Shown: piece by piece, positions 1,975 to 63,436 of the stretch
Layout: every line of letters begins with the position of its first letter
Numbering within the stretch: position 1 is the first letter of the stretch
DNA from: Isoetes taiwanensis
Lineage: Eukaryota > Streptophyta > Lycopodiopsida > Isoetales > Isoetaceae
Assembly (NCBI GenBank): GCA_021234155.1
Contig: JAJEKV010000017.1
Span: 9,863,525-9,927,524 of the forward strand
DNA length: 64,000 nucleotides
Direction: 5' to 3'
Notes under the pieces: generated by a model
Database searches by the model: none
What the model was told of the DNA's origin: nothing
What the model saw: only the letters and a program-made list of their open reading frames with translations
Made by a program: the position numbers and the translations under genes

Positions 1975-1987
1975 CTCCTCCTTCATG
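1975..1987 (-). other. Copia-1 polypurine tract
   Basis: On the minus strand ATGAAGGAGGAG directly precedes the 3' LTR. That is the position and purine composition expected of the plus-strand primer. Copia-2 has the near-identical GAAGGAGGAA in the same place. Confidence 0.8.
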
Positions 1988-1988
1988 T

Positions 1989-8120: not shown

Positions 8121-8199
8121 GTGGATTCAACAGTTATATTCACAGAGCTTGATCTACCTTGACCTCTTGCTCGTGAAGCTCCTCCTCTATTACCTATTT

Positions 8200-8995: not shown

Positions 8996-9003
8996 ACTGA
9001 ATT

Positions 9004-9016
9004 GGCTCTGATACCA
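9004..9016 (-). other. Copia-1 primer-binding site (initiator Met tRNA)
   Basis: On the minus strand the sequence TGGTATCAGAGCC begins two bases inside the 5' LTR. This is the standard plant copia primer site, complementary to the 3' end of initiator-Met tRNA. Confidence 0.93.
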
Positions 9017-9017
9017 T

Positions 9018-9528
9018 TGTTGATATTTCAGCAAGATAGTATGCACTCTGATAACCTGTGCATATGCTTCTCCACCAGATTAACAAATAAATAGTGATCC
9101 ACTACGGCAGATATATTCCGGCTAGAAAAAGCTAGAGCAAACAAGACTTAGTGATTCACTGCAATTGAGTATCTTCTGGCTAGAAAAAGCCAGAGCAACC
9201 TGAGCCCATAGCCTGCAGCAACATGAAATTGGAGCATGATGAATCGGCTGTCCAGAGCTATCCGGTTATACCTGCAAAAAAAAACTGTTCCGAGGAGACT
9301 TCTCAGTAAATCCGGTATGACCCACAGCAATCCGGTACTTGTCAATAAAAAAACGCTGAGTTAACAAGAACTTTTTGCTAATCCATCTGTCTGCCGCTTC
9401 ACTTGATCCAATCTCACCTTTTTACTATGATCCAAAGTTTTCTGATGTGTGCACCTGGCCTATTACGTGTAAATCATGCACCTCAAATTTCCATTGTGAC
9501 ATGATTATCTTAAACTATTATTTTAACA
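9018..9528 (-). repeat. Copia-1 5' LTR
   Basis: Direct repeat of 1469-1974, starting TGTTGATATTTCAGC and ending TTTTAACA, next to the primer-binding site. It is followed by the AGGGT target duplication at 9529-9533. Confidence 0.95.
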
Positions 9529-16739: not shown

Positions 16740-17513
16740 TGAAGAGAAACTGATAGAAAAATAAATGTCTAGTAAGATTTTTCCTTTGCTTTTTCAATTC
16801 AACTACAACATTGGTACAAAGACCTTTGATCTTGTAAGAAGCCAAGATGTGGTCACTAATTCTTACAAAGATCATACACTCAAGAAACCATGCATATCAA
16901 TTTACACATTTGCTTATAGACTTATCCTTGCCCTTTTGCCTTAATAAGTCATCATTCTACCATTGAAAATATAATGGTCTAGTACTGTTCATCGGGCATT
17001 GACCCGAATACTGTAGCAGTGTTGACTGCTAACCTTCGACCCCTTCAAATCAATCGTTAGAGCTCCATATCCGATCGTTCTACCTCGATCTACACAAATC
17101 ACATCTATATATGGAAACTTATACCATTCCCGGCGGTTATGGGTAAGGATCAACTTGCTAATCCGGTTGAACTCCGGCTTCAAATATCCCACAGGACGGT
17201 TGTACAAAATGAGCTTTTCCACAATATCCCACATGCCTGTTAATCAAAATTGGCTTTGGAACCATTGAATGAATTTATCCCCTTTTACCATTGTTGTTAC
17301 GAACCACCTTTATCTTGCAACCAATTAAACATGTCATGAAGATCTTTGCCTTAGATAATCCTGTCAATTGCTCAGATCCTTTCTTGTGCTTTAGGTTAAT
17401 TTAAAATCAACCTAGCTCTTCTAATGACCAAGTAAGTCTGCCTACTGCCACTGCTTCTCATAGGCAGACTGTGTAACCTTCAATGTATAGACTTATGAGC
17501 TGACAACTCAACA
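16740..17513 (-). repeat. Copia-2 3' LTR
   Basis: Starts TGAAGAGAAACTG and ends AACTCAACA, matching 21883-22657 nearly base for base. Small differences occur near 17115 and 17170. Confidence 0.96.
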
Positions 17514-17525
17514 TTCCTCCTTCAG
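17514..17525 (-). other. Copia-2 polypurine tract
   Basis: On the minus strand CTGAAGGAGGAA lies directly before the 3' LTR, the expected plus-strand primer position. Confidence 0.8.
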
Positions 17526-17567
17526 CTTATAAGTCTATAAGTGTGCATTCTTGTCTGCAACTTTCAA

Positions 17568-18764
17568 CTAGTCCCCGACCTTAATAAGTTTGTTTCTGGT
17601 TTCCTTCTTTAGTTTATAAGACTGTAAGTCTGTAACCTTGTCTGCAACATTCAGCTGATCCCTGAACTTAACAAGCTTAGTTTCTGGTAGAGCCTTCGTA
17701 AAGATATCTGCTACTTGATTGCTTGTATCAACATATGCCATTTGAATAAGCTTCTTCTCAGCAAGATCCCTTATAAAGTGCATATTCAGCTCTATGTGTT
17801 TTGTCCTGTCATGATAGACTGGATTTTTAACAATTGCTATACAACTCTGACTGTCAGTCCATATTTCTGTAGGTGTTTGTTGTCTACAACCTATTTCATC
17901 AAGCAATCTTCTTAACCACACTAACTCTTTGGCAACAAGAGAAGATGCAGCATATTCTGCTTCAACTGAGCTCATAGCTACAGCAGTTTGTTTTTTACAT
18001 TTCCAGGTAATCACTCCTCCTGCTAAGAAAATGGCATACCCAGATGTAGACTTTCTAGTGTGCAGATCTCCTCCCCAATCTGCATCACTATAACTCAACA
18101 TTGTCAGATTTTCAGAGTTGAAACAAATGCCATGTGTCTGAGTTCCCTTTAGATATTTGAGCACCTTTTTAGCTGCCTCCCAATGTACCTTAGTTGCATC
18201 ATGATTTCTTCTGCTTAAAATGTTTACTACATATGCTATGTCAGGTCTAGTGCTGTTGGCTAAAAACAGTAAGCAACCAATCAAGGCTCTATAAGGCACA
18301 TTTTGCATTTCTGTAATCTCCTTATTAGAGACATCATGTACATCTGTCAGTCTATGCCCAGTTGCTATAGGAATTTTAGAAGGCTTAGCTTCAGTTAGAT
18401 TAAACCTCTTCAACATGTTTCCTATGTGAGTACTTTGGTGTAGCTTTATCCATTTTAGCTCTCTGTTCCTGATCACTTCAATTCCTAGAAATTTTTTAAG
18501 CTCGCCTAGATCTGACATTTGGAATCTGGCCCTTAAAATATCCTTGCAAATATTCAGAATTTGTAATGAACTTGCAACCATTATACAATCATCCACATAT
18601 AAGGCAATGATGCAATATTCTCCATTTTGTTCAAATCTATAAAGATTCCCATCATTTTGCAATTTCTTAAAACCCTGTTCTTGCAAAAACTGATTTATGC
18701 ATAGGTACCATTCTCGAGGGGACTGTTTTAGCCCATAAACAGCCCTGTTGAGCTTCCAAATCAT
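17568..18764 (-). pseudogene. Copia-2 pol, RT and RNase H part
   Basis: This 398-codon frame carries RT from MIWKLNRAVYGLKQSPREW through the catalytic YVDDCIMVAS, then the connection and copia RNase H with SDADWGGDLHTRKSTSGY, AMSSVEAEYAASSLVAKELVWL, WTDSQSCIAI and HDRTKHIELNMHFIRD. The motifs are all present, so this part looks recently active. It is separated from the preceding frame by a single frameshift at about 18761-18775, in the motif APGYH..DMIW. It ends at TAA shortly before the polypurine tract. Confidence 0.94.
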
Positions 18765-19207
18765 ATCTTTACCATGTGATATCCTGGAGCCTGTTTCATA
18801 TATGCTTCCTCTTCAAGTGTGGCATTTAAAAATGCTGTTTTTACATCCATATGGTGAATTTCCAAATTCATTGCATTTGCCATAGCTAGTAACACTCTAA
18901 TACTTGTAAGCTTGACTATAGGTGAGTATGTTTCATCATAGTCACGTCCTTTCTTTTGTGTGTATGATCCCTGAGCCACCAATCTTGCCTTATACTTTTT
19001 GGTCCCATCTGGATTTAACTTGATTTTGTACAACCATTTACTTCCAATAATATTTTGCTTACCATCAGATTTAACCAGCTCATATGTTTTAGTCTCTTGG
19101 AATGATTTGAGCTCATCATCCATGGCTGCCATCCACTTTTCCTTATCTTTACTGTGTTGAACTTCTTCAAAGCTTTGAGGGATGATTTCATCCTCTAGTA
19201 TGGCCAT
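18761..19207 (-). pseudogene. Copia-2 pol, RT N-terminal part
   Basis: The frame shows FEEVQHSKDKEKWMAAMDDE, TYELVKSDGKQNIIGSKWLY, KYKARLVAQGS and LEIHHMDVKTAFLNATLEEE, the standard beginning of copia RT including the first catalytic Asp region (MDVKTAFLN). It overlaps the end of the upstream pol frame in another phase, which marks one frameshift near 19190-19210. Confidence 0.93.
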
Positions 19208-21161
19208 AATTAATTTGTTCTGGTTCTAATGTAACAACTCTTCTACTTCTTCCCAATTCATCTCTTCCATATAATTTTCCTTCTTCTAATTTAGCTTCCT
19301 CCATTAATCTTTCGGCCTGGGTTTTTCTTTTCTTCTTCTCTATGTGATGGTCTCCATGTCCTCCTTGATCTTGATCTTCTGCTGGCACATTTGTAATTTC
19401 TGGAATTTCTGTGGCTGCTGAGCTTGCAACTTCTTCCTCATTAACATCATCATCATCTATTACAAGTTCAGGTTGTACCTCTGGTTTTGTTGTTGTAACT
19501 TTGACTCCTTTTATGTATCTGTCTTTATATAATATGCTCTCATTAAACAAAACATCCCTGCTAATAATAACAGATTTAGTTTCTGGAACATATATTCTGT
19601 AGCCCTTAGACTCCTCATCATACCCAACAAGAAATCCAATTTCAGCCTTGCTATCAAGTTTCCTTCTTAATTCTGTTGGAACATGAGTATACACTAAACA
19701 ACCAAAGGCTTTCAATCTTTCATAATTTAGTTTTTGGTTTGGATTCCATAAGATGTCTGGAATGTTCCCCTTTAAACTTGCTAGAGGTAACATGTTTTGT
19801 ATTAGAACTGCAGTAGTCAAAGCCTCTTCCCATAATTTATTGGGCAGACCACTTCCTTTGATCATTGCTCTTACTGCATCCATCAGAGTTCTATTCTTCC
19901 TTTCCGAGACCCCATTTTGCTGAGAAGAATATCTACAGGTCAGCTGCCTCTTAATTCCACGAGCTATGCAAAATTGCTTAAATTGTTTGGCAAGATATTC
20001 TCCACCTCTATCAGATCTGATGCATTTAAGTTGATGACCAGTTTGTCTTTCCATCTTTGCCACATATTGTTTGAATGCACTCAAATCTTGAGATTTCCTT
20101 GCCAAGCAATATGTCTTACACTTCCTACTGTAGTCATCTGTGAAGGTTATAAAGTACCTTTTATTATTTCTGCTTTGCACATTCAAGGGGCCACATAGGT
20201 CTGAATGTACCAATTCTAGAACTTGCTGGGCTCTGGTTTTGCTTTTATGGAATGGCAGTCTGTTTAGTTTCCCTAGGGCACATCCTTCACATATAAGCTC
20301 ACTACCTTTGGTGTCATGATAGTTAATGTAGCCATGCTTCAATAAGAATTTAAGATTTTTGTGATTTGTATGAGCAAGCCTTCTATGCCACAAGTCTGCA
20401 CTTTCTTCTTGTATTGCATTTATGCAAGGATACTTCACATTATCCATTTCAAAAAGATTTCCAACCCTTTTGGCAACAAACTTTATTTCATTATTCATAT
20501 ACACATTACATTTGTCTCCTTCAAAAACCACTCGATATCCCAAATCACATAACTGACTAACAGAAATCAAGTTTTTAATTATTGCTGGCACACAAAGGAC
20601 ATTCTCTATGTTCACAACATTTCCTGAAAGATCTTCTAACTGTAAAAGACCAGTCCCCTTCACTTCTTGAAGAGCTCCATTTCCCACTTGAATTTTCCTG
20701 GAACTTGTGGCAGAAATATTCTTCAAAAGATCAGTAGATTGCACTACTGATCTTTCAGCTCCACTATCAACTATCAAGTGATCAGATTTATTAGTAGCAA
20801 TCTTATCATTTAACACAGCAAATTCAGCATGTACCTCATCTTCATCTTCTTCCTCGGCCACTCCCTTTGAAGATACTTCTTGTTCTTGAGCAATATATGC
20901 CCTTTCATGCCCTCGGCCTCTCCCTCTTCCAGACCTGCCTCTGCTTGACTCTCCTCTGCCTCGAGATTTTCCAGAACCCTTTGGTGTAGGACATTTTGAG
21001 GCCATATGTCCCCTTCCTCCACATGTATAACAATTAAACTCTTTTTTTAATCTAGGGCACTCATTTTTATAATGCCCTAACTCATGGCAGTTATAGCAAG
21101 TCACCTTGTCTTTTCTTTTGACCGCTAACACTTCTGGGGTTTCTTCATTTTGGCTTTGCCT
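19188..21161 (-). pseudogene. Copia-2 zinc knuckles, protease and integrase
   Basis: In order: two CCHC knuckles (CYNCHELGHYKNEC, CYTCGGRGHMASKC), a basic Arg/Gly/Ser stretch, protease LIVDSGAERSVV, pre-integrase LWHRRLAHTNHKNL with CEGCALGK, and integrase with Asp in VHSDLCGP, Asp in CIRSDRGGEYL and Glu in QQNGVSERKNRTL. The YERLKAFGCLVY and GYDEESKGYRIYVP blocks and the acidic linker follow. It is in frame with gag upstream across one TAG, and all catalytic residues are kept. Confidence 0.95.
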
Positions 21162-21863
21162 CTAGATTTTCTTTTGCTCCCATTCTGTTCTTAAGGTAAT
21201 TTCAGCTTCTTCTCGGGTTCTACATGAATTCCTTATAAACAAGGCCAAAGTTTCATTTTCACCTATAGCTCTAGATATTTGTAATACCTGACTTCTTTCA
21301 GAGATTATAACTCCAGCCCCACTTAAATCAACAATCAGGTTATCAAACTTGTTAAAGAATTCTCCCACATCTTCATCCTCTCTCAACTTCAATCCCCTTA
21401 ATTCATTTTCAAGCAAGTCTATTTGAGAAGAGGTTTTTTCCTCATAATGTTTTAATAGGAATTTCCACATCTCTCTAGGTCCAAGAGATCTAAGTTTGAG
21501 ACGAATTGAAGGACTTACCTTGCAACATATAATCCCTTGAGCTTCCTTTGCCTTAGCTTGCAGAGATTTGCCTCCACTGGAACCACCTGCTCCTCCACCT
21601 GTTACACTAGCACTGCCTGCTGTACTAGCACTGCCTGCTGTTGGTTGAGCCTTTGTACCTGCAGCAGATCCAGTAGAATCTGATCTGGTCAGAGTTCCTG
21701 CTCCAGCACCAACTGCACCAACTGAACTATCTGGATCTACCAGATCCCAAAGATCCTCCACTTCTAACACATACTTGATGGCATCTTTCCACACCTGGAA
21801 CCCTGAGCCACCTTTGTACACATCAATAGTATTTAGCAAACTAGCAGCAAATCTACTAGACAT
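21162..21863 (-). CDS. Copia-2 gag
   Basis: The start codon at 21863 lies just inside the primer-binding site and gives MSSRFAASLLNTIDVYKGG. The 233-residue frame has a Ser/Gly/Ala-rich low-complexity stretch (about residues 55-100), then a gag capsid region with AKEAQGIICCKVSPSIRLKL, REMWKFLLKHYEEKTSSQID and FFNKFDNLIVDLSGAG. It ends at a TAG at 21162-21164. The same frame continues beyond this stop as RQSQNEETPEVLAVKRKDK into the zinc knuckles, so gag and pol were one frame. Confidence 0.92.
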   Translation of the reverse strand: MSSRFAASLLNTIDVYKGGSGFQVWKDAIKYVLEVEDLWDLVDPDSSVGAVGAGAGTLTRSDSTGSAAGTKAQPTAGSASTAGSASVTGGGAGGSSGGKSLQAKAKEAQGIICCKVSPSIRLKLRSLGPREMWKFLLKHYEEKTSSQIDLLENELRGLKLREDEDVGEFFNKFDNLIVDLSGAGVIISERSQVLQISRAIGENETLALFIRNSCRTREEAEITLRTEWEQKKI

Positions 21864-21869
21864 CTTGTA

Positions 21870-21881
21870 GCTCTGATACCA
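21870..21881 (-). other. Copia-2 primer-binding site (initiator Met tRNA)
   Basis: The minus strand reads TGGTATCAGAGC one base inside the 5' LTR, the same site and spacing as in Copia-1. Confidence 0.95.
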
Positions 21882-21882
21882 A

Positions 21883-22657
21883 TGAAGAGAAACTGATAGA
21901 AAAATAAATGTCTAGTAAGATTTTTCCTTTGCTTTTTCAATTCAACTACAACATTGGTACAAAGACCTTTGATCTTGTAAGAAGCCAAGATGTGGTCACT
22001 AATTCTTACAAAGATCATACACTCAAGAAACCATGCATATCAATTTACACATTTGCTTATAGACTTATCCTTGCCCCTTTGCCTTAATAAGTCATCATTC
22101 TACCATTGAAAATATAATGGTCTAGTACTGTTCATCGGGCATTGACCCGAATACTGTAGCAGTGTTGACTGCTAACCTTCGACCCCTTCAAATCAATCGT
22201 TAGAGCTCCATATCCGATCGTTCTACCTCGATCTACACAAATCACATCTATATATGTCAGCTTATACCATTCCGGCGGTTATGGGTAAGGATCAACTTGC
22301 TAATCCGGTTCAGAACTCCAGCTTCAAATATCCCACAGGACGGTTGTACAAAATGAGCTTTTCCACAATATCCCACATGCCTGTTAATCAAAATTGGCTT
22401 TGGAACCATTGAATGAATTTATCCCCTTTTACCATTGTTGTTACGAACCACCTTTATCTTGCAACCAATTAAACATGTCATGAAGATCTTTGCCTTAGAT
22501 AATCCTGTCAATTGCTCAGATCCTTTCTTGTGCTTTAGGTTAATTTAAAATCAACCTAGCTCTTCTAATGACCAAGTAAGTCTGCCTACTGCCACTGCTT
22601 CTCATAGGCAGACTGTGTAACCTTCAATGTATAGACTTATGAGCTGACAACTCAACA
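21883..22657 (-). repeat. Copia-2 5' LTR
   Basis: Direct repeat of 16740-17513, beginning TGAAGAGAAACTG and ending AACTCAACA, followed by the GTGCT target duplication. Confidence 0.96.
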
Positions 22658-39325: not shown

Positions 39326-41290
39326 AGAGCCAATTATCTAGGGGAAGTGTGTCAAAGGATATATGCACACCTTGTAATGTTCACCTCTAATTAATAAACT
39401 TTCCATTCTTCTGTAAAGAGGGGGTATCTTAGTTTGAGAAGTTGTTTCAAAAGAAACTTCAAAAAATTTGAAATATGTCATCTAACCACCATAAAATATA
39501 AATTGTGTCAAAAAAAAATTAAGTGCCTAGCTTACATGGATAGTATGCCAATAAATAAGGTAAAATTTGGAGCATTAATCAAATTCTACTTCGCTAACTT
39601 CTATACTTATCATTCTCCTAGCTTACATGGCTAGTATGCCAATAAATAAGGTAAACTTTGGAGCATTAATCAAATTCTACTTCGCTAACTTCTATACTTA
39701 TCATTCTATTATTGTGTGATCTTAGGCATTCGTCAAAGTCAAAATTTGATTTTATTTTATTTTTTCTTTCCGGCATGGTCTAATAGTAGGACCTTAAACC
39801 ACCACACCAGAAATCGTGGGTTAAAGTACGGCCAACATCACCATTTAGTTAGGGGGTCCTTAAAATCCATTGCCCCGAGGCCACGAGATCAAGTAAGACA
39901 AATCGATCTTGTGGTAAGGACCTTAAATCTGCCATATGTAATAGATAATCACATGCAAGCAACTCCTAGTATAAGGTATCACAGCTGGATAATGGATTGG
40001 TTTTCATGTGATACGTAGAACTATACTCATGATATGATGGTAAATAGACTGATGTCCTTCTATAAAAGGCACTTATTTTTTGAACTTCTTGTTTGACAGT
40101 TTAGAAAGAAGCGTCTCGGGGTCCTCGCATCTTACGGTGTCTCAATTCTAGTATTCATTTGTCCATCCAAATTAGCACTATTTTTTAGTATTATGGGAAT
40201 AGGGAAATTCAAAATTCATGATAATTTCCCTTGGGGAAGGGGGGTTGATTCCCCTTTTTCCAAGGGGGAGAAATCTCCCTTTTTTTTGTCCATTTTTTGT
40301 TCAAGCTTCTTTCGATCTGATGACCAAAGACGAAGATAGGAGGTAAAAATGGTGTTTGCAGAAGCAATGACAAAAAGCAAGCAAGATGAAATGGAAATTG
40401 TCAAATGGAAATTTAGATGGGAGTATTGAGCATACCAAAATCAATTGCATCATGCAGCCTACGTAATTGCACAATTAGCACGTCCTGGTCATCTTCAATT
40501 AAAGGGCTAAAAAACATAGAACGTGAAAACCTTAAGAAAGTTCAAAATCAATTGACAAGGTTATGTCTGAATTTATAAGACCACTTTCTGTGTCCTCTGA
40601 TGAGTTTGTAACAAGTGTTTCATATTCTATTATATATTTTGGAGCACTACCATCTTTTACGATATTTTGGATCTTCAACATATGTCTTAGGCAGAAATGG
40701 AAACTACTTCAATGTCTATAGACCAGAAGAAAGAATTATGCCATCTAGTTGAGAACAACAAAGTGAAAAGAGTGGAGTCCAATGATAAATTAGCAACATT
40801 AGTCATGGCACCTGGGAAGGTTAGGCATGTAGTAAAAGATTAGCATGGCTTTAGGAATTCTTCCAAAAAATTGTTCCATAGCTAAGAAGCACCATATTGC
40901 ATTTTAGGCTCTTGTTGGAAGAAAGATTGAAAAGTTTTTGGACTATTGGGCTAACTATACTAGAGCTTCTCATCGCTTCAAGGACATGAGATTTGATAGA
41001 GGAAAAATATCTTATGCGTCCAACACATTACCTTGTCGAAGTAATTGCTAGTAATTTTCATAAGTTTTGTGGTTATTGCTGATTCTAATAGGAAGTGTGT
41101 CTGCATTCGAATTAATCTGCAAGTGGTATATCACAAAAAATGTATAATTATGTAAAATGTATAATTATACGGCCATTTTACTATGGTTTGCATATGATTC
41201 TGTTATTGTATTTGTGTGAGGGTATGCCAATAGTATTTATAGAGCGCGTGTTATATTTCTTGTTAGTTTTCACTCCCAATCTATGGTTTT
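39326..41290. other. AT-rich stretch without recognisable gene
   Basis: No domain visible in short frames. It includes a tandem duplication (39526-39707). An ACC/GGG-rich palindromic stretch of CCCCTT and AAGGGG blocks lies near 40225-40285. Confidence 0.5.
39526..39707. repeat. Tandem duplication, 91-bp unit
   Basis: The unit starting CCTAGCTTACATGG occurs twice in a row (39526-39616, 39617-39707) with only one or two differences, which suggests a recent local duplication. Confidence 0.92.
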
Positions 41291-46566: not shown

Positions 46567-46589
46567 GGCGCCTAATGTGACGTTCCAGG

Positions 46590-48178
46590 TATTTATAAGG
46601 TATACGTATGCATACCATGACATGTCATCAGCATGTAGTGGGCCTAAGGGCCCAAGTGAGGTTCACCTACAATGGATTTTATTAGCTATACTAGTAAAAC
46701 CAATGGATAATTATGGATTTCATTGGCATAATTAACCTGATTATACTAACTTGGTCTAATTAATTAATTATCACCAATGAGGGGGCGCCATCTGGCCCAA
46801 ATCTATTGGCCAGGAGGGACTTGCTATTTGGGTTATCCCAAATTCGAATTGGAGAGTGAAGAGAGCAGCAGCCACCAGCTTAAACCCATCCTTGCCAACA
46901 CCTACCAACAGCCTCGAACTATGGATGCCTTCCGTGACAACGGCTCCAGCCAAGAGACTGGTTAGTCCTTAGATAGTTCCTATTCTGCTGACACTTCTTT
47001 GAATAGATGGAATGATTAAATTCTCTTTTGTATGTTGTTCTGGATACTTAGATGGTATTTATATTCTTTCTTTCCGCTTCTTCCATATATTAGGAATTAA
47101 GGGAAGGGTAGAGATCTAAAAGCCTCTTAGCAGTAGAGATGTCTCTAGCTAGATCCCTTAATACCCAATAATTGTGGCCTATGCACAAGAGCCAACCTGG
47201 CTGTGGATGCAAAGGTCCATAGCCTTTATTTGAGCTAATCTTAGCCTTGGCAACCTATATAAGGAGTTGGAGACGATTTTGGAAAACACAGTTCTACAAC
47301 TGGAGCCAGGCAATTGGAGCATCTTGCTCTTCCTTCCTTCCTGATCTTTTGTTTCTTAGTGTTTCTGTCCATTTCGAATCGATTGTGGATGTGGTTCAGC
47401 ACCAGATAATGAGTATGATGGTGAATCGGGGGTGGGGTCTTGCCTAGCGCAGCTATAGGGCTCCTACAGTGTGCTAGGCTTATAGCCGGCCATCGTGTGT
47501 GGGCCGGGTATGGGTCTGACACTCTCTGGGTCGCAGGGATGTGCCTATATAGATGCCCTGGGCTCGAACGGGCAGGTGAGCCGGCCTTTAGATTTAGGGG
47601 AGTAAGTCGGGTAGGGGTCGCTGATGTGGCACGTGTTCTCTAGCACACCCAGGGATCCGTCATGCTCGGGAAGGAGACACCTCTCTAACCTGCCTCATCG
47701 GACCAGGGAGATGTAACCCGGAGTAGTCCCGTAGGGTGATTCCTTGGGATTGCGTCTCCGGAGGGCTACAAGCACGTCATAGCATGATTCAGCCTATCTG
47801 CAAAGTGTGCACAGGAGGGGCAGATGGATTGAACTACCCTAGCCATTGTCTTATGCCAGCCAACGCCATGTTATACTTCCGTCTGCTGATACCTTGAGGC
47901 CCTGGCCGTCAGTTGGTCCCTTGGAGTCTGAGCCCCAGGGTAGTGCCTTGTTATGGTGTTTAGCTTCATGTATGGGCCACCATGTATGCTTCCACTGTAT
48001 AGGATTCTCATAGAGGACGTGGGACGAATGACACATCCGTGTTTCTCGCCCGGACACTTGGCCATCCCAAGAGGTCCGAGTATAACGGAGGGCCTTACTA
48101 TGGTGATGGAGTCGCCATGGGAGGGGAATTCCCGTATTTGTACGATGAGAGCATCGTATAGATGTCGGGAGTGCCACA
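46590..48178 (+). repeat. Probable 5' LTR region of the chromodomain gypsy element
   Basis: The right boundary is set by GTGCCACA at 48171-48178, followed one base later by the primer-binding site. The left boundary is not known because no matching 3' LTR is in the window; the region after LINE-C is taken as the outer limit. No gene is visible in it. Confidence 0.55.
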
Positions 48179-48179: not shown

Positions 48180-48191
48180 TGGTATCAGAGC
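48180..48191 (+). other. Gypsy primer-binding site (initiator Met tRNA)
   Basis: TGGTATCAGAGC follows the LTR end CA by one base, on the plus strand, fixing the orientation of the element. Confidence 0.9.
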
Positions 48192-48862: not shown

Positions 48863-49194
48863 ATGAGCATGGCACGTATCAAGAGTACTCAGAGCTATGG
48901 CTCCCTCAACATACCCCAGATCTACACCCAACTTGGGGAGCATTTGGCTACCGATCCTAACAGGATCGAGCTCCTTCTAGTCCAGCTGGTGCAACGTTTC
49001 ATTGACAGCCATAGGATACCCTATCCTATTTTTCACCTCCGAGCGCTTCTTGATAAAGCTTAACCTTTTACAGCAGTCATATACTATAATCGAGCAACCC
49101 GACCAAGTTATGATGTTGGTTAAGTGTTACCCACCTGAGTGTTAGGAAGTCCCTGAAGGAGGCCATTCGGAGGGAGGCGGCCCGCATTAGGGGG
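48863..49194 (+). pseudogene. N-terminal extension of the H3-like protein (frameshifted)
   Basis: A frame starting MSMARIKSTQSYGSLNIPQ at 48863, 16 bases or so after a TTGTCTAG acceptor-like site, runs to a stop at 49061. Further on [20 protein letters not shown] is in frame with the ORF at 49195. The two parts are plausibly one protein with one or two indels between 49060 and 49140. I recognise no domain in it. Confidence 0.55.
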
Positions 49195-50148
49195 TTGGCC
49201 CGAGAAGACGACATCCGAGAAATAGAAAGGGGAGACACCGAAGCTTGGGGCCGTGAGTATGTCTACCTGGGTGATGGGAGAGCCATCATCAACTATAACC
49301 CCCTTGATCTTCCCCCATATGAATATGATGAGGCTACACAAAGTTTTACTTGGGGTGAGGTCCCATCTCACATCAACCTGGATTACTTAATAATGATTCA
49401 AATGGATATGCAAGCCCGGCCGGACCGCTACCATATGGAACTTATCCGAAGGGTTACGTCCCGACGTCTTGCACAGGTAGAAGCAGATACGGCTGCAGCT
49501 CGTGAGGCTCAGGAGGAGGCTGAGAGAGCCCAGCAGGAGCAACAGCAGCGAGAGCAGCAGGAGGAACAACAACAAAACCAGGACCAACCGCAGCAGCAGC
49601 CCAACACTGAGCAGGAAATCCCGCGCGGTCCCGACCAAGCAGACAAGCCTCCCATTAAGAGACGGCGGAAGTCCACCGCCCATAAGTCGGGGATCCAATA
49701 TAAGGAGAAGCTCAAGGCTGTCGTTGGGACGCACACGAGCTCGAGTGGCCGGCAGGAACGAGTGGATGCCGCACGGCCCCACCCAGTCTCTGCGGGCAAG
49801 ACTTTGCCCAAGAAGCCTGCACCGACTCAGAGGGCGGCTACTTCAAGAAAATCCCATCGCTTCAGACCCGGTACCGTGGCCTTATGGGAGATCCATAAGT
49901 ACCAAAAGACCACGGAGTTGCTATTACAGAAGCTACTTTTCCAGAGATTGGTCCGAGAAATAGCCCAGAAGTTTAAGACCGACCTGCGCTTTCAGACTTT
50001 TTCTATTCTGGCACTCCAAGAGGCTGCGAAGGCTTACCTGATAGCCCTTTTTGGGGATGCAAACCTTTGCGCTATCCACGCAAAGAGGGTCACGATCATG
50101 ACTAAAGATTTGGCCCTTGCCCGGAGAATTCGGGGAGATCCTCTTTAG
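49195..50148 (+). CDS. Retrotransposon-borne histone H3-like protein with coiled-coil N-terminus
   Basis: This intact 317-codon frame ends in a histone H3 fold (about residues 220-317). [18 protein letters not shown] begins the alpha-N region, then [19 protein letters not shown] (helix 1, loop 1), [14 protein letters not shown] (helix 2), and [13 protein letters not shown] with LARRIRG (helix 3). By eye about three quarters of the residues equal those of canonical plant H3, with no gap, and loop 1 has canonical rather than CENH3 length. Before it lie a Glu/Gln-rich coiled coil (about residues 95-145) and [13 protein letters not shown], which recalls the H3 tail. Changes at Arg-to-Trp and Pro-to-Leu sites are unlike any host H3 I know. 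It may be incorporated into, or compete with, nucleosomes; this is inference. Its position between primer site and gag, same strand, argues that it is an element gene. Upstream frame remains open towards 49140. Confidence 0.9.
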
Positions 50149-50384
50149 CTTGTTTTCAAGCATCTTGTAACAATTTTGTAGGGATAAATATCAATCCAAA
50201 TTTTGTCTACTTAGTCTCTGTTTCAAAATAATTATTAATAATAAATAAATAATTTTATAATTATTTAAAATATAGATGCTAACATCAGCATAAAAGTGAA
50301 AAAGGTACTTAAGAGTTTTTAGGGTTTTATTCCTTATCTCTTACCTTTCTGTTCGTCCTCCTCCTCCATCCCTTGCAGAGCCAA

Positions 50385-51736
50385 TGGCAACCCCAACTCT
50401 ACTCGAATGATATCAAGATGGAGAGCACTGGGACCCCTAAGTTCCCTTCAACCTCCTACAGCCTTTCTTGCTCCAAAAGATAGATCTTATATCCAACATG
50501 CAAAGTCATCCTGACTATGCTAGTTTTCTTGAGTTCTATACCCAAGAAATGCTCCCTCTCTGCATTCCTTTGGGAGATCCACCACAGCTCTACATAGAGC
50601 GAATTGTAGTGAGGGAAATGCTCGGAGGAGACACCCATGCATACGACGTGCTCAAGGGCAAACTCCGATGGAGCCGCAGCCCATTATTGTCATTCATGAG
50701 TGCCAGCAATACCTTGAAGTGGCCTTTTCTCTGGCCATTCTTATGGACCAGTATGTAGACTATTGCCGGCAGAAAAGGGCAAGGTCTCTGAGTCTCCAGA
50801 TGAGAAAGAAGACGAGTATATAAGGATGGATGATTTTGTCAGGTGGAACCAGTTGGCCAAACAGATGCCGCCGCACCGGGATCAGGGAGCACGCTTGACC
50901 GGATTGGATGCCCTTCCGGTTATCTATCACCAAGGTCAGGAGTTCCTCCTGTTGGATGATATTATCTAGACATACCATGTAGTGGCCGGTTTGAAGGGCC
51001 GGGAGAAAGTCCAGGTGCTCTATGAACTAGCCGAGTATTGCATGGATGACTTTATTGATTTTACACCCATAGATCTCCCTCCGGAGGTACAACAGCTGCT
51101 CCAGTTTCATCAGGAGACTATAGAGCCGGCTGATACTCTTCTTTGGCTCAGAGATCTTGTACTTCAAGACCCTCCTTCTCAGCCTCCTCAGCAAGCCGGA
51201 CCTCACGTCCCAAACATTAATATGGTTGTCATTCCTTCCGATTCAGATGAGGAAGGTAAAGATCTCTATCATAACCCCACTCATCTTAAGGAGGAGAAAG
51301 AAGAGCTCACGGAGGAAGAGGTACTTCGGTTACACCACAGGGTAAAGCATTGGGGAATCACCTCACACGCTTCTTCTTATCAGCCTTCCGGCAAGGGCAG
51401 GTCCTTTTTGTGGCACGAGACCTGGCCCCAGAAGCCGAAGCATCGTGGTGGAGCCTCCATGCATTGTCCACCCTGGCGGGCCACAAGAAGCTTTCTTATC
51501 ACATCCTCACTTATGTGTTGGTGCGTCGGGACTTCGCCCTTACCGCCTTGGGCCAAGACATAGCACCATGGATGAGCATGAAGCTCCTTACGGCAGCCCC
51601 ATTAGCTGTTGCCTATCCACCAGAGGTTGCTTCCTTGGCAGCCACCACTGTTGATCCAGGGATTACCCTGCTACGCCATCGGCCGCCACCATCCCCTCCT
51701 ACACCGATGGATCGGGATGTGGGGCCTAGCTCATAA
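50385..51736 (+). pseudogene. Leader ORF 2 of the gypsy element (unrecognised, frameshifted)
   Basis: An ATG in MATPTLLE follows the acceptor-like CTTGCAG at about 50372-50378. Plus-strand frames then read HPDYASFLEFYTQEMLPLC, MDDFVRWNQLAKQMPPHRD, LAEYCMDDFIDFTPIDLPPE and, in a shifted frame, ASWWSLHALSTLAGHKKLSY and FALTALGQDIAPWMSMKLL. A Ser/Asp/Glu-rich acidic stretch with SDSDEEGK lies at about 51240. I recognise no domain. At least four indels or stops are present. It lies where retroelements carrying extra genes place them. Confidence 0.5.
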
Positions 51737-51895: not shown

Positions 51896-52210
51896 TTGTA
51901 TATCTATTCTTGCCTTCTTACAGAAGAAGAAGAGCCATATGGCCCAACTAAGGGCTTCCAGATTATTACGATCCTTCGGGACCATGCCTACGAGCACTTA
52001 AAGCTTACCCTCTGCCGAAGTTGGTCGTATTGGGATTGCACCAAGCAGGAAGCTTTCGAAGATGCTGACGATCATCTGTGGCAGATTTACTACACGCTCC
52101 GTGATCTTCTCAATCTTTTAATTATCAGCCCAACCTGGGAGTTTCAAGACGTGATCATCCAAGCTTGGGCTAAGTATAAGATGGTCCATGCAATAAGGGA
52201 GAGTATCTGA
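51896..52210 (+). CDS. Leader ORF 3 of the gypsy element (unrecognised)
   Basis: A frame of about 100 codons; the coding part most likely begins after CTTCTTACAG at about 51920, giving EEEEPYGPTKGFQIITILRD and ending AWAKYKMVHAIRESI. It is rich in aromatic residues and has no stop. No domain is recognised. It could be the last exon of the preceding frame. Confidence 0.4.
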   Translation: MYIYSCLLTEEEEPYGPTKGFQIITILRDHAYEHLKLTLCRSWSYWDCTKQEAFEDADDHLWQIYYTLRDLLNLLIISPTWEFQDVIIQAWAKYKMVHAIRESI

Positions 52211-52493
52211 TACTCTATCCTTTATCCCCTTATTCAGCCCTAAGCTAGCTTGTTTCAGGATCCTCTTTGTATAAATATAACTCTAGTTTCTTGCATGTTC
52301 TGCCAAGAAGTTTTGTAATCGTGTCTTCATCTTAATAAATGGATGTTTTTCTGTTGCAAAGTTCTTGTCATAACTAATTGAACTAGTATGCTTATCTTGA
52401 ATTTGTTTTCTACCTTAGACAGTGCACGCCCCCCTCCGTGGGCGACACCCGTACAACCGGGCCGTCTTACCTCCGAACAGTAGCTCACTATCA

Positions 52494-53530
52494 TGAAGCG
52501 CCAGCTTAGTGAGCTCCAGACCTATGTAATGCAAATCAATCCACCCCAAATGCCACAGGAGTATGGACCAGAGATTCCTGCTCCACTGAATTAGCAGCCG
52601 CCGCCACCCGCACCTGCACCTGTGCCCGCAACAACTAATCGATCTAAGAGGGCACGCACTAGTTCTCCTTCAGATGCTACCTTTGAGTCTTCTGACTCAT
52701 CTGACTCCTCTAAGGATGAGGCCGACCATATGAAAGCCAAAAAGAAGGATTACCAGAAAACAGTGGATTCGGCCATCACTAGTATTTGGAGGAACCGAAA
52801 ACTAGCAAGTTCTCGGGAAAAACCAGGTCCGGAGTGGATGCGGAATCCTGGTTGGATGAAATGCAGAAGTTCGGTAAGTCATATGGAATGACCGAGAAGG
52901 ATGTCGGCAAAGTTGCCACCACCTATCTCACAAGGTCTGCTCGTATATGGTGGAAGGGATATGCCCGCTCCCATGGGCTGACGAGAGGAAGGTGCCGCTA
53001 TAAGGTCTTTGCTAAAGCCTTCAAGTCTCATTATGTACCCAGGGCTCACCGCTGTCAACAGATCCAAACCTTCTATCACCTGGAACAGAAGAACATGTCC
53101 ATCCAGTCATATACGGATGAGTTCATGAGGTTACGCTTATATGTCCCAGAGATAAATGAGCGTAGGGCAGTTGAAGGATATATAGAGGGCTTATCCCCTA
53201 CCTTGAGGAAAATGGTTTGAGAAATAGACCCTAAGACAGCTGCAGAAGCAGAGGCTAAAGCCCTTAGCCTAGAAGAGGACACTCCCAAGTACCAGCCATC
53301 GCGACCCTCTTCTTTCAGTCAGAACAAAGGGCATACACGTTTCAGGGGGCGCTCACCTAGTCCGGGGCCTCCCGCCTCTACTGGATATCAGAAAACTGAG
53401 AAGAAAGTTTCCTTTACTGTACCAGAGAAGTCTGCCAATACTGCGGGAGCTTTCAGAGATATCCTTCAAGCCATTCCCAAGGAAGCTCGTGAACAGTTAC
53501 GTAAGGATAGGGCTTGCTATCGATGCTTCC
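52494..53530 (+). pseudogene. Gypsy gag with zinc knuckle
   Basis: MKRQLSELQTYVMQ begins at 52494, followed by a Pro/Ala- and Ser/Asp-rich stretch. After a frameshift near 52785 the retrotransposon gag domain follows: RSGVDAESWLDEMQ, ARIWWKGYARSHG, FKSHYVPRAHRCQQIQTFYH, SIQSYTDEFMRLRLYVPE. A stop lies at 53218. The zinc knuckle CYRCFHLGHHMQEC lies at about 53515-53557. Confidence 0.88.
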
Positions 53531-56350
53531 ACCTGGGACACCATATGCAAGAATGCCCCTATATTACACAGACCGTGCAGGCTGCCCTTGCTGATATAGA
53601 TTGGGAAGGCGTAGGGGACCCAAACCATCTGGACGATGCTGCTGAAGATGACGCGCCTGACTATATAATAGGTGAGTCTCATATCTATGCTGCCATTGAA
53701 ATGGGTCAAGCCAACCATCAGCCCTCTGTCATCTCTATGGCAAGTAGTTGTAAACCTTTCATTATCCTTATGGATACTGGTAGCACGCATAATTTTGCAT
53801 CTTTTAGAATGGCAGAAGTCTTACAGATTACTCCTTTGAAGTCTAAGCCACGTCCAGTTACGTTGGCTAGTGGGGCTATACGCCACACACGTGGTCGGCG
53901 TATCAATTTGAACATTCAGTTGCCAGGAGCATCTGTCGCTCTCGGAGCAGAGATAATGGATATTGGCCGCTATGATCTCATTGTGGGAATGGAATTCCTG
54001 GCTGCTGCCAAGGCCAACATTGACTGTGAGAAATGGGAAGTTACCTTTAATGCAGCCAATGGGGCCCGAGTCACTATAGCAGGTAAGCTGGTTATTCCCA
54101 TTATACAATGTATTTCATTATGCCAGTTGCATAGGGCTCTCAGGAAATTTCAAATTATTGGCATGATCTGACTTGCTTCAGTGGAAGCTAAGTCCAAACA
54201 GGATGAAGTTCTTGATACCTTGCCTCCGGCAATAGCCGTGGTCCTTCGGGAATACCACGACTTATTTCCGACGAGATCCATCGCTTGCCACCTTTTAGAG
54301 GGGTGGAATGTGAAATCACTTTGGAGCCAGGCACTAAACCTACCAGTAAGGCCCCGTATCGGATGAGTATTCCTGAATTAACAGAGCTTAAGAAGCAGTT
54401 GCAGGAGCTCCTCAAATTAGGCTTCATTCGACCCAGTGTTTCACCTTTTGGAGCCCTGATACTCTTCGTCAAGAAGAAGATGGCACCTTGAGAATGTGCA
54501 TTGATTACCGCCAACTGAACAAGCATACTATTAAGAATCGGTATGTTTTGCCGCGGGCCGACGATCTAATGGATCAATTGCAAGGGGCTAAGTACTTTAC
54601 AAAGATTGACCTTCGGTCAGGATATCACCAGATAAGGATTAAGGAGGATGACATCCATAAGTCCGCTTTCCGGACGCGCTATGGATATTACGAGTTCATT
54701 GTGATGCCATTTGTCCTGACCAATGCTCCAGCCACTTTCATAAGGCTCATGAATGATGTCTTCCGCGAATACCTTGATGATTTTGTCATCATATTCTTCG
54801 ATGATATCCTCATATACAGTAAGACCTTAGAGGACCATGAATGGCACCTTCGGTTGGCCTTACAGAAATTGAGGTGCCACCAACTATATGCCAAGTTCTC
54901 CAAGTGTCGCTTTGCAACCCCCAAGGTTGATTACCTGGGACATATTGTATCTGCCGAAGGAATAGCCACAGATCCCGCTAAGATTGAGGCAGTAAAGGAG
55001 TGCCCATTCCAACCAATATGTCTGAGGTCTGCAGCTTTCTAGGTTTGGCCAGTTATTACCGTAAATTTGTCAAGGACTTTGTCAAGCTCGCCCCACCTTC
55101 AACTGACCTGACCAAGCATGAAAAGGTTAGGGATTGGATGGCACATTGGAAAGACAAGGTTCGGGCCGGATTTCAAGCATTAAAGGATGCCTTGACAACA
55201 GCTCCAGTTCTTACCATGCCAGATCCTCAAAAGGATAAGTGGGTTGCCACAGATGCTAGTAAAATAGCTACGGGTGGAGTCTTAATGCAAGAAAGTCGGG
55301 TTATCGCCTATGATTCTAGAAAGATGAATAATGCAGAACAGCGATACCCCACGCATGATCAAGAATTGCTCGCAGTTGTGCGTGCCTTGCGCATTTGGAG
55401 GCACTATTTACTTGGAAGGCGATTCCACTTAGATACGGATCATCAAAGCCTCCAATATATCTTCATGCAACCTCATCTCAACTTGTAACAAAGTGGATGA
55501 AATTCCTTGAGGAGTATGATTTTGAGGTCATTTATAAGCCGGGCAAGCATAATGTTGTTGCAGATGCGCTTTCTCGACATCCATTCGTCACTCGCACGCA
55601 GTGTAATGCTATATCCACACTCTCCAGTGAGTTTGGAAAGCAGATTCAGCAGGTCCTTCCCGTAGACCCAGAATTCCGGGAGATATGGCAAAGTGTATCT
55701 AAGGAAGCCAGAACCGATAAGGAGAGGGAGACCTTCCGCCATTATAAGAAGGAAGCTGAACTCCTTCATTACAAGGATAAGTTATGTGTTCCCGAGACAT
55801 TTGGAGTTCGTATGCTCATTCTCCATGATACGCATAACAATCCTATAGCGGGGCATGCAGGATTTATGAAAACATATTTCAAAATCCGCTCCAGCTATTT
55901 CTGGCCAAGAATGACAAAGCACATTGCCAAGTACATTAAGCAATGCCAGATCTGTCAGCAAACAAAGGCGGGGCAGTTGCGTATCCCAGGGGAGTTACAA
56001 CCCCTCGATGTCTCCCCAATGCAAAATGGAAAGTTATTACCATGGATTTTGTCGTGGGGCTTCCGTGCACATTAAGAGGATTTGATGCCTTAATGGTGGT
56101 AGTCGACAAACTTTCTAAAATGGCACATTTCCTGCCATGTTGTACCACGGACACTGCATTGGATACCGCCTTGCTCTTCACTAAGGAGATATTTCGTTTG
56201 CATGGGATGCCTCGTACCATTGTATCAGATCGGATACTAAGTTTGCTAGTGCGTTCTGGAAAGATTTATTCAGCACTATTCAAACTAAGCTTGTCATGAG
56301 CACAGCTTATCACAGATGGTCAAACAGAGCGTACCAATCACATAATTGAG
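53530..56350 (+). pseudogene. Gypsy pol: protease, RT, RNase H, integrase (broken)
   Basis: Protease FIILMDTGSTHNFAS (active-site DTG) lies at about 53757-53800. RT has [37 protein letters not shown], and catalytic FFDDILIYS (usual first residue variants aside, both Asp are present) near 54793. RNase H has VATDASKIATGGVLMQ, HDQELLAVVRALRIW and DTDHQSLQYI. Integrase has HAGFMKTYFKIRSSYFWP, CQICQQTK, MDFVVGLPC (first Asp) and IVSDR. Frameshifts or stops at 54169, 54366, 54490, 55042, 55487, 56073 and 56298 break it. Confidence 0.92.
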
Positions 56351-57198
56351 GATATGCTACATAACTATGTCTGGAACAAGCAATCTCAATGGGCATCCAT
56401 TTGGTGGAGTTTGCCTATAACAGCACTAGACAGGAGTCCTCAAGGACGTCTCCTTTCATGATAAATTACGACTATCAATGCCTCACTCCAGACACGTGGC
56501 ATAATCCAGTATCCAAGGTGGAAGTTTCTCAGCAGTTGCTTACAGACATGCAAGTGCTAGTTGAAGAGGTTCGAGCATATTTGATAGCTACAAGGGCTCG
56601 GCAAAAGAGTCTTGCTGATCGACATCGCACGCCCCGGGAGTTTCAGGTCTGTGATTCCGTTTGGCTAAAGATCAAGGTGAAGCAAGCCAAACTTAAGATT
56701 GGCAATTGCAAGAAGCTTGCACCTAGATGGGCGGGACCTTTTCAGATAACCGAAAGGATAGGTTCTCAAGCTTACCGATTGGATCTACCCGCACATTTAA
56801 AGATCCATAAAGTTTTCCATGTAAGTCTTCTCAAGAAGCATCATCCGGATCCAGAGGAAGTTCTTGATACACCAACACTTATGGAGATGACTGAGGATCA
56901 ATTGGAGATTGTGCCCGAAGCTCTCCTTGATTATGCATACAAGCAAACCCGTCGAGCTCGAATGTTGCAATACTTGGTTAAGTGGAAACACTTACGCACA
57001 ACGGACACAACATGGGTTCTTAAAGCGGATTTGGATAAGACTTACCCAGACTTTATGAAAGAATGCCAGGGCCGAACCATTCGAGATGCAATCATCTCCG
57101 ACCCTGATGGTAAGCATAGTGTGTTTCTAGTGCGACAGGGGTCATATAAGCGAGATCCGGCAGGGATCATTCTAGGGGTTGGGTTACATGCATCTTAG
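56350..57198 (+). pseudogene. Gypsy integrase C-terminus with chromodomain
   Basis: The frame 56389-57198 carries the integrase end and GPY/F-like block WAGPFQITERIGSQAYRLDL with HKVFHVSLLKKH. A chromodomain follows (about residues 175-225: YLVKWKHLRTTDTTWVLKAD, with the aromatic Tyr, Trp and Trp). Chromodomains of plant gypsy elements guide integration to heterochromatin through histone H3 tails. This is noteworthy because the same element carries an H3-like protein. Confidence 0.85.
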
Positions 57199-57699: not shown

Positions 57700-59480
57700 A
57701 ACGGTTAAAACTTAATGTGACTGGTGCACTGATGCATGGGCATGGCACAGGTGCATTAGGTCATTTCTCAATTGACCTTTGGAAGGATGATTTGAATTTT
57801 CGTGTTGGTTCTTTGAATCATGCTATCAAAACTTTGGAGGATACTTCTGAAGATGACTGGGGCCATTTGAGAGAAGAAGGCCGCCCTGAGTGCATTTGGC
57901 GATCAACACTTCTTAACAGCATGGGGTTGAGAACCAAAAAATTGAACATCACTGGCCATGACTTTATAACACCCCCACGACAATTGGCTCAACTTAAAAA
58001 GCTACCCAGGAGGCTCTACTTGTAGTTAGACAACTGCTCAGGCCAGAATAAGAATAGATATCTCTTCTCTTATCTTTTCTATCGTGTTTAGTTGGATGTC
58101 TTCGAACAAATACAACTAGGTTTATGATGGTTGGACGCATGATGATAGTGATGCACTCTTTGGTAACTACTCCACTTTAATGCGCAGATCGGATGCACTT
58201 ACTATTCCAGAGCTAATACAACTCTTTCAAGAATGTAGCACCAAGGCATCGGCACTATACCCTGTTACAGATGTTCCTGATTGGAAGTTTTTCGTGAAAG
58301 GATACATTCCTAATAAGAAGGATCGCTTGATTGGTCATTTGAAGCCCTTATTGTTCAAGTCTCTGCATGAAGGATGAGTGGCCACTAATGTATTACAAGA
58401 TGAGACCAGTTTAGAGAATGGTTGCCAAATAAGGGTATTCGGATGTGGAAAGCAGATGACAATGGTGTGCCCATGATACTGATGGCTCTCCAAAGTCTGT
58501 TAAGCCGTATGCAAGCCTAAAGGACATAGATGCTTTGAGATCATCTATTGCAAAGTACATGATGCATTGGGCTAATATCTCTAGGGCTGGAGCGAACTCA
58601 TGGTCCAATTCTTACATGAGTGAAGTTATTGACTACTGGTCTGATCTGATGCATGTCTAGGGGATGTTCCCTCTGGCAATACTGAAATAAAGAACTTTTG
58701 GCCTCAAACGAGGCAAGACCTGATAGCCGAGGTAGATCCAATTATGGTTGATGAATAGAATGCTCTCCCACCTTACGTGGGACCTGCAAAGGGTAAACCT
58801 AAAAATGCAGTTGAAATATTTGACCCATACCAAGATGTCCAGAAAGACATGTTCTTGGTTGTCAGCCGGGAGATGTGTGTCCTGCATGGGTAGCGTATGC
58901 AGAAAAGGACTCTGTACAAGACCCGACTCTTCCACATTATGAAGAGGTTCTTGTGTCTTGGTGGGAGCCAGTGGCAAGGAAAGGTACTACATATGCTCAG
59001 CAATATCGGGATTGCTGGCATAAAAAGTGGAGACTAAATTCTAATGACAGACCACGCGTGCTAAAATACAAGTTTTCATACATTTTCATCCTTTGGCAGG
59101 CCATGACCAACCTACAATGTTTAAAGATTCATCATAAAGTTTTTTACTGGAATTTTAAATCAAAGGCTTCATCCCAGGCACAAAAATTACCTGCCTAGAT
59201 CTCGATATGGCAGAACATGAACCAGGAGCCAAGGCGTCAATTCTGTCTCCAGAAGAGCGTGGCCAACTATCTAGGAAAAGATGCAGAAGCCTTGTGCCAT
59301 CTTTAAAAAGAATCGGTCTTTCTGGAGCTCAAATCCGTTAAAGGTCAAGGAAAGAGAGTTGTCTCAGGCATCAAATTATCTTCCAGATTTTTGGGTTTTT
59401 GTTTGTGTCGAGCGTGTATACATGCCTTGTATCACTTTCTTAAATCTCATCAATCCTAAAGAGAAGAAACTACTCTGTTA
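57700..59480 (+). pseudogene. DUF7869-type transposase remnant
   Basis: Broken plus-strand frames show the block LPRRLYL, LDNCSGQNKNRYLFSYL (58025-58080), VFEQIQLG and, later, RRSDALTIPELIQLFQEC. This matches the DUF7869 pattern LQLDNC..(E/Q)NKNR...VGHTHEDID...F that occurs in plant and animal transposon-associated proteins; the VGHTHED part is recognisable only in shifted frames near 58120-58150. The C-terminal region CPAWVAYAEKDSVQ and LVSWWEPVARKGTTY follows. Many stops and shifts; no terminal repeats found. Confidence 0.72.
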
Positions 59481-62961: not shown

Positions 62962-62967
62962 CTATAC

Positions 62968-63124
62968 TGTAACGGGCCCATGGTAGACCGCTCGAGTATT
63001 CGAACCTTGAATGTGCCTGTGGGGCGTTCCCGAGACATCGGCATAAATGGTAGAAGCGACTACTCATAAATGTCTAGACGGTTTTGCCCAGTTGGTTAAG
63101 GGCATGTCGGTTAGGAACGTCACA
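62968..63124 (+). repeat. TRIM 5' LTR
   Basis: Starts TGTAACGGG, ends GTCACA. Contains a tRNA D-arm-like stretch GCCCAGTTGGTTAAGGGC at about 63086-63103. Confidence 0.94.
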
Positions 63125-63126
63125 GT

Positions 63127-63138
63127 TGGTATCAGAGC
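63127..63138 (+). other. TRIM primer-binding site
   Basis: TGGTATCAGAGC begins two bases after the 5' LTR, complementary to initiator-Met tRNA. Confidence 0.9.
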
Positions 63139-63278
63139 AGGTCTCGAGTTCGAGTTTCCATGGGTGCCTATATGCATGGGTAATTTGCAAAGACTTGGTA
63201 ATCATTGTGACATGGTATGACATAGACATGGTATAGCCTTGGATGCTCGAGGACGAGCATAATTCTAGTGGGAGAGAC

Positions 63279-63436
63279 TGTAACGGGCCCATGGTAGACC
63301 GCTCGAGTATTCGAACCTTGAATGTGCATGTGGGGCGTTCCCGAGACACCGGCATAAATGGGTAGGAGCGACTACTCATAAATGTCTAGACGGTTTTGCC
63401 CAGTTGGTTAAGGGCATGTCGGTTAGGAACGTCACA
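63279..63436 (+). repeat. TRIM 3' LTR
   Basis: Matches 62968-63124 with a few differences (for example ATGGTAGAAG against ATGGGTAGGAG). It is preceded by the purine tract and followed by CTATAC. Confidence 0.94.

Follow-up and report, generated by a model that had tools for sequence, protein, structure and literature searches.

The gene that we call ORF-A, which encodes a protein ending in a complete histone H3 core, appears to belong permanently to a large lineage of chromodomain Ty3/gypsy retrotransposons in Isoetes taiwanensis. One copy lies in the 64-kb stretch of DNA analyzed here (the window), in which a first-pass annotation had reported an H3-fold protein encoded between the primer-binding site (PBS) and gag of a chromodomain gypsy element. 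The parts of this window copy are as follows.

46576 to 48178, plus strand: 5' LTR, TGTGACG...CCACA, about 1603 bp; LTRs of several fetched copies align to it from their TGTGACG onward.
48180 to 48191, plus strand: PBS TGGTATCAGAGC, read from the sequence.
48863 to 49157, plus strand: broken 5' part of ORF-A (N-terminal domain), in two frames with one stop, located with the ORF-A of another copy, L009, as the tblastn query.
49195 to 50148, plus strand: the reported frame, which is the 3' part of ORF-A (translation and tblastn with the L009 ORF-A).
49474 to 49617, plus strand: Gln/Glu-rich linker of ORF-A, probably helical (translation; helix at residues 184 to 235 in a low-confidence model of copy L020).
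49660 to 49692, plus strand: basic H3-tail-like motif of ORF-A, with the lysine of an A[R/H]KSG-like motif that is present in 22 of 22 rows.
49846 to 50145, plus strand: histone H3 core, H3 positions 36 to 135 (Pfam, solved H3, and alignment of element cores).
50384 to 51730, plus strand: remnant of ORF-B, about 466 codons where open (comparison with open copies; no Pfam match).
51932 to 52231, plus strand: remnant of ORF-C, about 165 codons in relatives (comparison with relatives; no significant Pfam match).
52415 to 55535, plus strand: remnant of gag, protease, reverse transcriptase (RT), and RNase H, with several frame changes and stops (Pfam and alignment to open relatives).
56389 to 57198, plus strand: C-terminal part of the integrase (SH3_Tf2-1) and chromodomain (about 56911 to 57063), from the Pfam matches SH3_Tf2-1 and Chromo.

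We take the PBS TGGTATCAGAGC to be of the initiator-Met tRNA type. Pfam placed gag at 52783 and RVT_1 at 54488, and the assignment of the H3 protein to the element, between the PBS (48180) and gag (52783), was borne out. A 3' LTR for this copy was looked for within the 64-kb window and not found.

The reported frame at 49195 to 50148 runs for 317 codons from a TTG, and from stop to stop (49114 to 50145) it has 344 codons. It had been described as an intact 317-codon frame, uninterrupted while the surrounding gag-pol is broken. The frame is indeed open, but it is not a whole gene; it is the 3' part of an ORF-A of about 418 codons. Homology to the L009 ORF-A begins at 48863 in another frame, and two frame changes and one stop follow before the open part. 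Because the 5' part of the same ORF-A is broken, the openness of the window frame proves little, and the idea that the frame is open because it is selected in this copy was ruled out. ORF-B, ORF-C, and gag-pol hold about eight frame changes and about nine stops beyond those in ORF-A, so that the whole copy has about 10 frame changes and about 10 stops over the pieces aligned to open-framed relatives (positions 55536 to 56796 lie outside these pieces). With that much damage, one open kilobase is unremarkable, and the window copy appears to be an old, broken copy of the element. Four core substitutions (R49W, P66L, E77K, and E97K) were found only in the window copy among 23 element cores, which points to decay.

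The window holds other repeats as well. An LTR-like pair at 16740 to 17513 and 21883 to 22657 (region 16740 to 22657) is 99.0% identical, has a minus-strand PBS at 21881, and is probably a young LTR element; a second pair at 1468 to 1971 and 9017 to 9525 (region 1468 to 9525) is 94.3% identical and has a minus-strand PBS at 9016. Two near-identical repeats lie at 62966 to 63436. At the end of the first, next to a PBS at 63127, stands CGTCACA, which resembles the LTR end of the H3-carrying family; the rest leaves the window. Downstream of the chromodomain, at 57717 to 58300, there is a frame followed by a DNCSGQNKN-like stretch, which resembles the remnant of a DNA transposase. A tandem duplication with a 91-bp unit (98% identical) is found at 39526 to 39707.

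The claim that this frame aligns without gaps to histone H3 held up. Residues 205 to 313 match Pfam Histone (E value, 1.3e-35), and residues 200 to 315 match solved histone H3.3 at 6e-45. The core has the length and fold of H3, being gapless over 100 residues with no loop insertion, and it is identical to host H3 at 80 to 88 of 100 positions in the 20 copies fetched from the assembly and at 75 of 100 in the window copy. The Gln/Glu-rich stretch and the H3-tail-like motif that had been noted upstream are likewise present in the translation. In the young group of copies, ORF-A runs from ATG to stop over about 418 codons. The encoded protein begins with an acidic N-terminal domain, continues through a helical linker and a basic stretch (pI 11.9) that holds the A[R/H]KSG-like motif, and ends in the complete H3 core (pI 11.1). 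The canonical N-terminal H3 tail (ARTKQTARKSTGGK...) is absent from ORF-A, about 318 residues standing in its place; tail-like remains are limited to short ARKS-like pieces and, in the window copy, KKPAPT. A chance frame was ruled out by the Pfam match, the match to solved H3, and the many genomic copies. Centromeric H3 (CenH3) has a longer loop 1 and a divergent core; given the lack of a loop insertion and the high identity to canonical host H3, CenH3 was also ruled out.

The rest of the protein gave few leads. AlphaFold models had mean pLDDT values of 47 for ORF-A and 36 for ORF-B, too low for judging fold, and Foldseek with this low-confidence ORF-A model gave no match below an E value of 0.001. 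Profiles compared with solved structures gave weak matches alone, the best E values being 0.4 for the N-terminal domain and 0.07 for ORF-B. No protein related to the N-terminal domain came up in a word-based search of 5.8 billion proteins, and searches elsewhere gave no tblastn match in phages and no confirmed relative in IMG/VR. ORF-B (L019:4032-5429) and ORF-C (L019:5617-6111) are two further conserved element proteins without a significant Pfam match, and Pfam found no histone in either. ORF-B is acidic (pI 4.9), with a motif, LPVV.HQG..YL, that seems to be repeated.

We searched the assembly (1,658,258,908 bases in 1110 contigs) for further copies. The window protein gave at least 125 scored ORF-A places, the window included, from 18,008 first-look candidates; 44 of the 125 scored places were free of stops. 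A search with a young ORF-A copy gave at least 101 places. Around ORF-A copies picked for stop-free, mostly long frames, we fetched 20 stretches of 10 kb, in which the order of parts was PBS, ORF-A, ORF-B, (ORF-C), and gag-pol. ORF-A spans nearly the full length of the query in 20 of 20, and ORF-B is likewise present in all 20 (displaced by about 5 kb in L021). Gag was found in 15 (in L014 as a fragment only), RT on the same strand in 14, and the PBS TGGTATCAGAG in 14. Copy L022 has the Pfam domains Retrotrans_gag, RVP_2, RVT_1, and RT_RNaseH, with a weak match to the gag zinc knuckle. Copy L020/L031 has LTRs of 1614 and 1613 bp that are 96.2% identical (42 mismatches), a GCTGT target duplication flanking both sides, and a purine-rich AAGGAGGGGAGAA before the 3' LTR; in L017, L018, and L022, no 3' LTR was found inside the stretch fetched. 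Thus, domain order, paired LTRs, PBS, purine tract, and target duplication all identify the carrier, by its sequence features, as a chromodomain Ty3/gypsy LTR retrotransposon (chromovirus).

Linkage was also examined from the other genes of the element. Ten RT places were sampled along the best 150 RT matches, and 6 of the 10 carry ORF-A, five directly and one in the next stretch. In L046, L049, L050, L051, and L052, the H3 part of ORF-A lies inside the expected 1.4 kb; L054 has an N-terminal part at 29% identity, and its H3 core follows after one stop in the adjoining stretch, L055. ORF-A was not found in the stretches fetched around the other four, where there were RT-like frames (L045) or unrelated sequence (L047, L048, and L053), so that loss and rearrangement are indistinguishable there. 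With ORF-B as the starting point, 47 of 91 places are preceded on the same strand, at a distance of 176 to 262 bp, by a listed ORF-A or H3 place. Two more adjoin L046 and L050, with ORF-A present at both; the match lists, which hold the best-scoring places, allow no judgment on the other 42. The first-pass annotation had left room for other copies of the element that lack the frame. That reading failed, as ORF-A was present in 20 of 20 fetched copies (picked for an open ORF-A), at 6 of 10 RT places, and at 49 of 91 ORF-B places.

Next, we consider selection on ORF-A. dN/dS was calculated by Nei-Gojobori counts from the 20 copies, which were picked for open frames, and therefore describes conserved copies. 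Across all 20, it was 0.136 in the N-terminal domain, 0.250 in the helical part, 0.231 in the basic linker, and 0.060 in the H3 core. The corresponding values were 0.105, 0.195, 0.213, and 0.045 in 11 young copies and 0.143, 0.220, 0.211, and 0.074 in 9 older copies, whose N-terminal silent sites are near saturation. When one copy at a time was left out (jackknife), the value for the H3 core stayed between 0.057 and 0.066. The comparison of the H3 part with gag-pol, which had been suggested in the first-pass annotation, gave 0.062 for H3 versus 0.063 for RT in matched copies (n = 6) and 0.062 versus 0.096 for gag (n = 8), with stop codons excluded (three stops fall in a single RT stretch of the six, and one stop in each of three gag stretches of the eight). 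The H3 core therefore appears to be kept by purifying selection, about as carefully as RT. Choosing open copies biases the sample toward conserved ones, yet this choice alone cannot make amino acid changes so much rarer than silent ones. A captured host H3 might instead have been multiplied by transposition without any function, and RIP-inactivated fungal hAT elements offer a precedent in the accessible part of the report (PMC6710886). We regard such a passive passenger as very improbable, because the core has dN/dS values of 0.045 to 0.074, equal to that of RT, at a dS of about 0.4 to 0.8 in the compared copies, and 129 of 135 element-like H3 places (best-scoring places only) have no stop in the match. 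Unless a sampling artifact is at work, the selection result refutes it.

These 135 places come from a search with Arabidopsis H3, in which the best 150 scored places comprised 15 host-like ones (96 to 98% identity) and 135 at 71 to 86%, which we take to be element-like, an assignment made by identity without checking each place. For host H3, eight genes were read of the twelve host loci cut out. Compared with an Arabidopsis-type H3.1, all eight have F41Y, D77E, and A90L, and two have one further change; E77 is shared by host H3 and 22 of 23 element cores. The element cores differ from host H3 in a uniform way. G102A, I124L, and G or S at position 105 occur in 23 of 23 cores, and A107, T86, F87, and I89 occur in 22 of 23, so that the element-specific changes cluster at 86 to 89, 102 to 107, and 124 to 125; these private residues are absent from all eight host H3s read. 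R69, R83, F84, C110, H113, K115, V117, T118, D123, and I130 are invariant in all 23 element cores, and R72, R116, L126, and R129 are kept in 22. The window copy taken alone would permit the insertion of a host H3 pseudogene into one element copy by chance. However, the same ORF-A is found in 20 fetched copies and many further places, and the same private residues recur in 23 cores, which leaves that reading a negligible probability; family-wide private residues and a dN/dS of about 0.06 rule out the host pseudogene that the first-pass annotation had named as one of two refuting outcomes.

Silent differences between element and host H3 are saturated (pS, 0.78 to 1.04), which implies that the capture is old. 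In a tree, a branch with support of 99/96 separates the 23 element cores from the eight host genes and two Arabidopsis H3s. This split fits one capture, although a tree without an outgroup is no proof, and we infer a single capture of H3 by the lineage. The element core nearest the host side is that of L055, a deep-lineage core that has all four element residues at 102, 105, 107, and 124. The N-terminal part of L054 gave 151 matches when used as a query; among those listed, identities ranged from 39 to 100%, many in frames of 400 to 546 codons. At five compared places with the L054-type N-terminal domain, an H3 place lies directly downstream on the same strand. At C928 near 1,487,000 and C1007 near 5,629,500, the N-terminal and H3 matches lie in frames of equal length (494 and 476 codons, respectively), and there the two are presumably one ORF. 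The N-terminal domains of the deep and main lineages are about 27 to 29% identical; because the deep sister lineage carries the fusion too, the fusion seems older than the split of these domains.

Amplification, compared with H4, is special to H3. An H4 search of the assembly gave 69 first-look candidates versus 9022 for H3, and of the 43 H4 matches, 16 are genes at 99 to 100% identity and the rest are fragments or divergent pieces; none of these matches points to a mobile element carrying an H4 counterpart. Any partner of the element H3 would therefore have to be host H4.

The explanation that we favor, and to which we give an even chance, is a captured and selected H3 that would pair with host H4, enter nucleosomes, and tether or mark chromatin. 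An ancestor of the lineage would have acquired the coding sequence of an H3, probably that of a lycophyte host, and joined it to the end of the N-terminal domain; the core would then have been kept by selection while the element diversified. The ORF-A protein would pair with host H4 and take its place in host nucleosomes as an H3 variant made by the element. There it could link chromatin to element proteins or to the integration complex or, alternatively, keep the chromatin on element copies in a state favorable to the element. The residues that H3 uses for the H3-H3 four-helix bundle, for H4 contact, and for DNA contacts are known from nucleosomes. Almost all of them are kept in the element cores, and they would be needless for a mere decoy or DNA condenser, which favors nucleosome incorporation. 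Chaperones tell H3 variants apart at positions 87 to 90, and the element changes at 86 to 89 lie beside this site, so the element H3 could conceivably be deposited by a separate route. H4 pairing, nucleosome entry, and the use of ORF-A are all inferred from sequence.

Two other uses of the protein would not involve integration or host nucleosomes in this way. ORF-A might be a decoy against silencing, its core and the A[R/H]KSG-like lysine soaking up histone chaperones or H3K9 methyltransferases or forming nucleosomes that cannot be marked, with no role in integration. The lysine conserved in every row would suit this, as would the family-wide changes at 86 to 89 (adjoining 87 to 90), 102 to 107, and 124 to 125, but a decoy needs less than a whole H3 core, and the H3-H3 and DNA contact residues are also kept; we consider it unlikely. 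ORF-A might also condense element RNA or cDNA in particles like a viral histone and never enter host nucleosomes. The joining of a basic linker and core to an acidic domain is in keeping with such packaging, and a viral H3 exists in the phycodnavirus DSLPV1, which like this element is a noncellular replicator with an H3 fold but is an algal DNA virus and not a retroelement, as far as the accessible text goes (PMC5769502). However, the element already has a gag with a weak zinc-knuckle match, and DNA binding alone would not demand preserved H4 and H3-H3 faces, which makes packaging rather improbable.

The favored reading, nucleosome incorporation, has a more specific form that involves the tail-like motif. 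A lysine about 50 to 55 residues before the H3 core is conserved in the context A[R/H]KSG.QY or similar; the variants are ARKS (10), AHKS (6), and one each of ARKF, ARKT, ARKL, DRKS, VRKS, and VYKS. Chromodomains of the HP1 type bind ARKS with a methylated lysine. By our own reading, the element chromodomain keeps Trp45 and seems to lack Tyr24 and Tyr48. In the accessible text of PMC3350952, this is the condition of group II chromodomains, and the binding partner of the plant members is reported as not found. The plant group II chromoviruses described there have the same Ty3/gypsy pol with a C-terminal chromodomain, and no histone ORF is reported in that text (PMC3350952). As speculation, the ORF-A tail could be the partner of the element's group II chromodomain. 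An ORF-A H3 variant in nucleosomes might then serve as a self-made chromatin address, read by the chromodomain integrase or the N-terminal domain, that directs integration or shields the element from silencing; we hold this version to be possible but doubtful.

Histone H3 in a mobile element has been described before, in fungi. In the parts of the reports available, a hAT transposon of Pyrenophora tritici-repentis has an H3-like ORF beside its transposase (26 H3L genes, with expressed sequence tags and with N-terminal tails that contain insertions); for these very similar copies, the authors propose drift (PMC3538342). The two cases are alike in that a mobile element carries an H3-like ORF, but that carrier is a fungal DNA transposon, whereas here it is a plant LTR retrotransposon with deeply diverged lineages and a dN/dS of about 0.06. 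In Pseudocercospora fijiensis and relatives, H3 copies captured by hAT elements are RIP inactivated and purifying selection is reported on the host gene (PMC6710886, accessible part); here, in contrast, the captured H3 core itself appears to be under purifying selection. The carrier being an LTR retrotransposon, the fungal hAT type of captured H3 does not apply.

Extra proteins are known from plant LTR elements. According to the accessible text of a review, additional ORFs tend to lie downstream of pol, before the 3' LTR (PMC7264820), whereas ORF-A lies 5' of gag; a term count found no "histone" in the main text of that review. An orchid Ty3/gypsy element likewise has an extra domain fixed in it, but this is an m6A demethylase-like 2-ODD domain and differs from H3 (PMC9289625, accessible part). 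Term counts also found no "histone" in the main text of both Isoetes genome papers (including PMC8566536), and the matches listed in the open-access literature (most subscription papers and preprints lie outside it) included no histone-carrying plant or LTR element. The statement in the first-pass annotation that no described plant LTR element has its own H3 therefore agrees with our search, but any claim of a first has to be narrowed given the published fungal hAT carriers (PMC3538342 and PMC6710886). What is known is H3 in mobile elements; what is new, within the literature searched, is a plant LTR element whose H3 gene is diversified and under selection. The selection signal on this mobile-element H3 appears unusually strong.

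Few proteins are as conserved as the core histones, which are also the substrate of transposable-element silencing. The lineage is thus a natural case of a parasite that holds the molecule on which its silencing is written, and it makes testable whether a mobile element installs its own nucleosomes. It also puts forward a possible partner for the group II chromodomains of plants, along with many natural H3 cores whose variation under selection is separate from the host H3 genes. Taken together, these results suggest that the element handles the chromatin of its host by means of its own histone.
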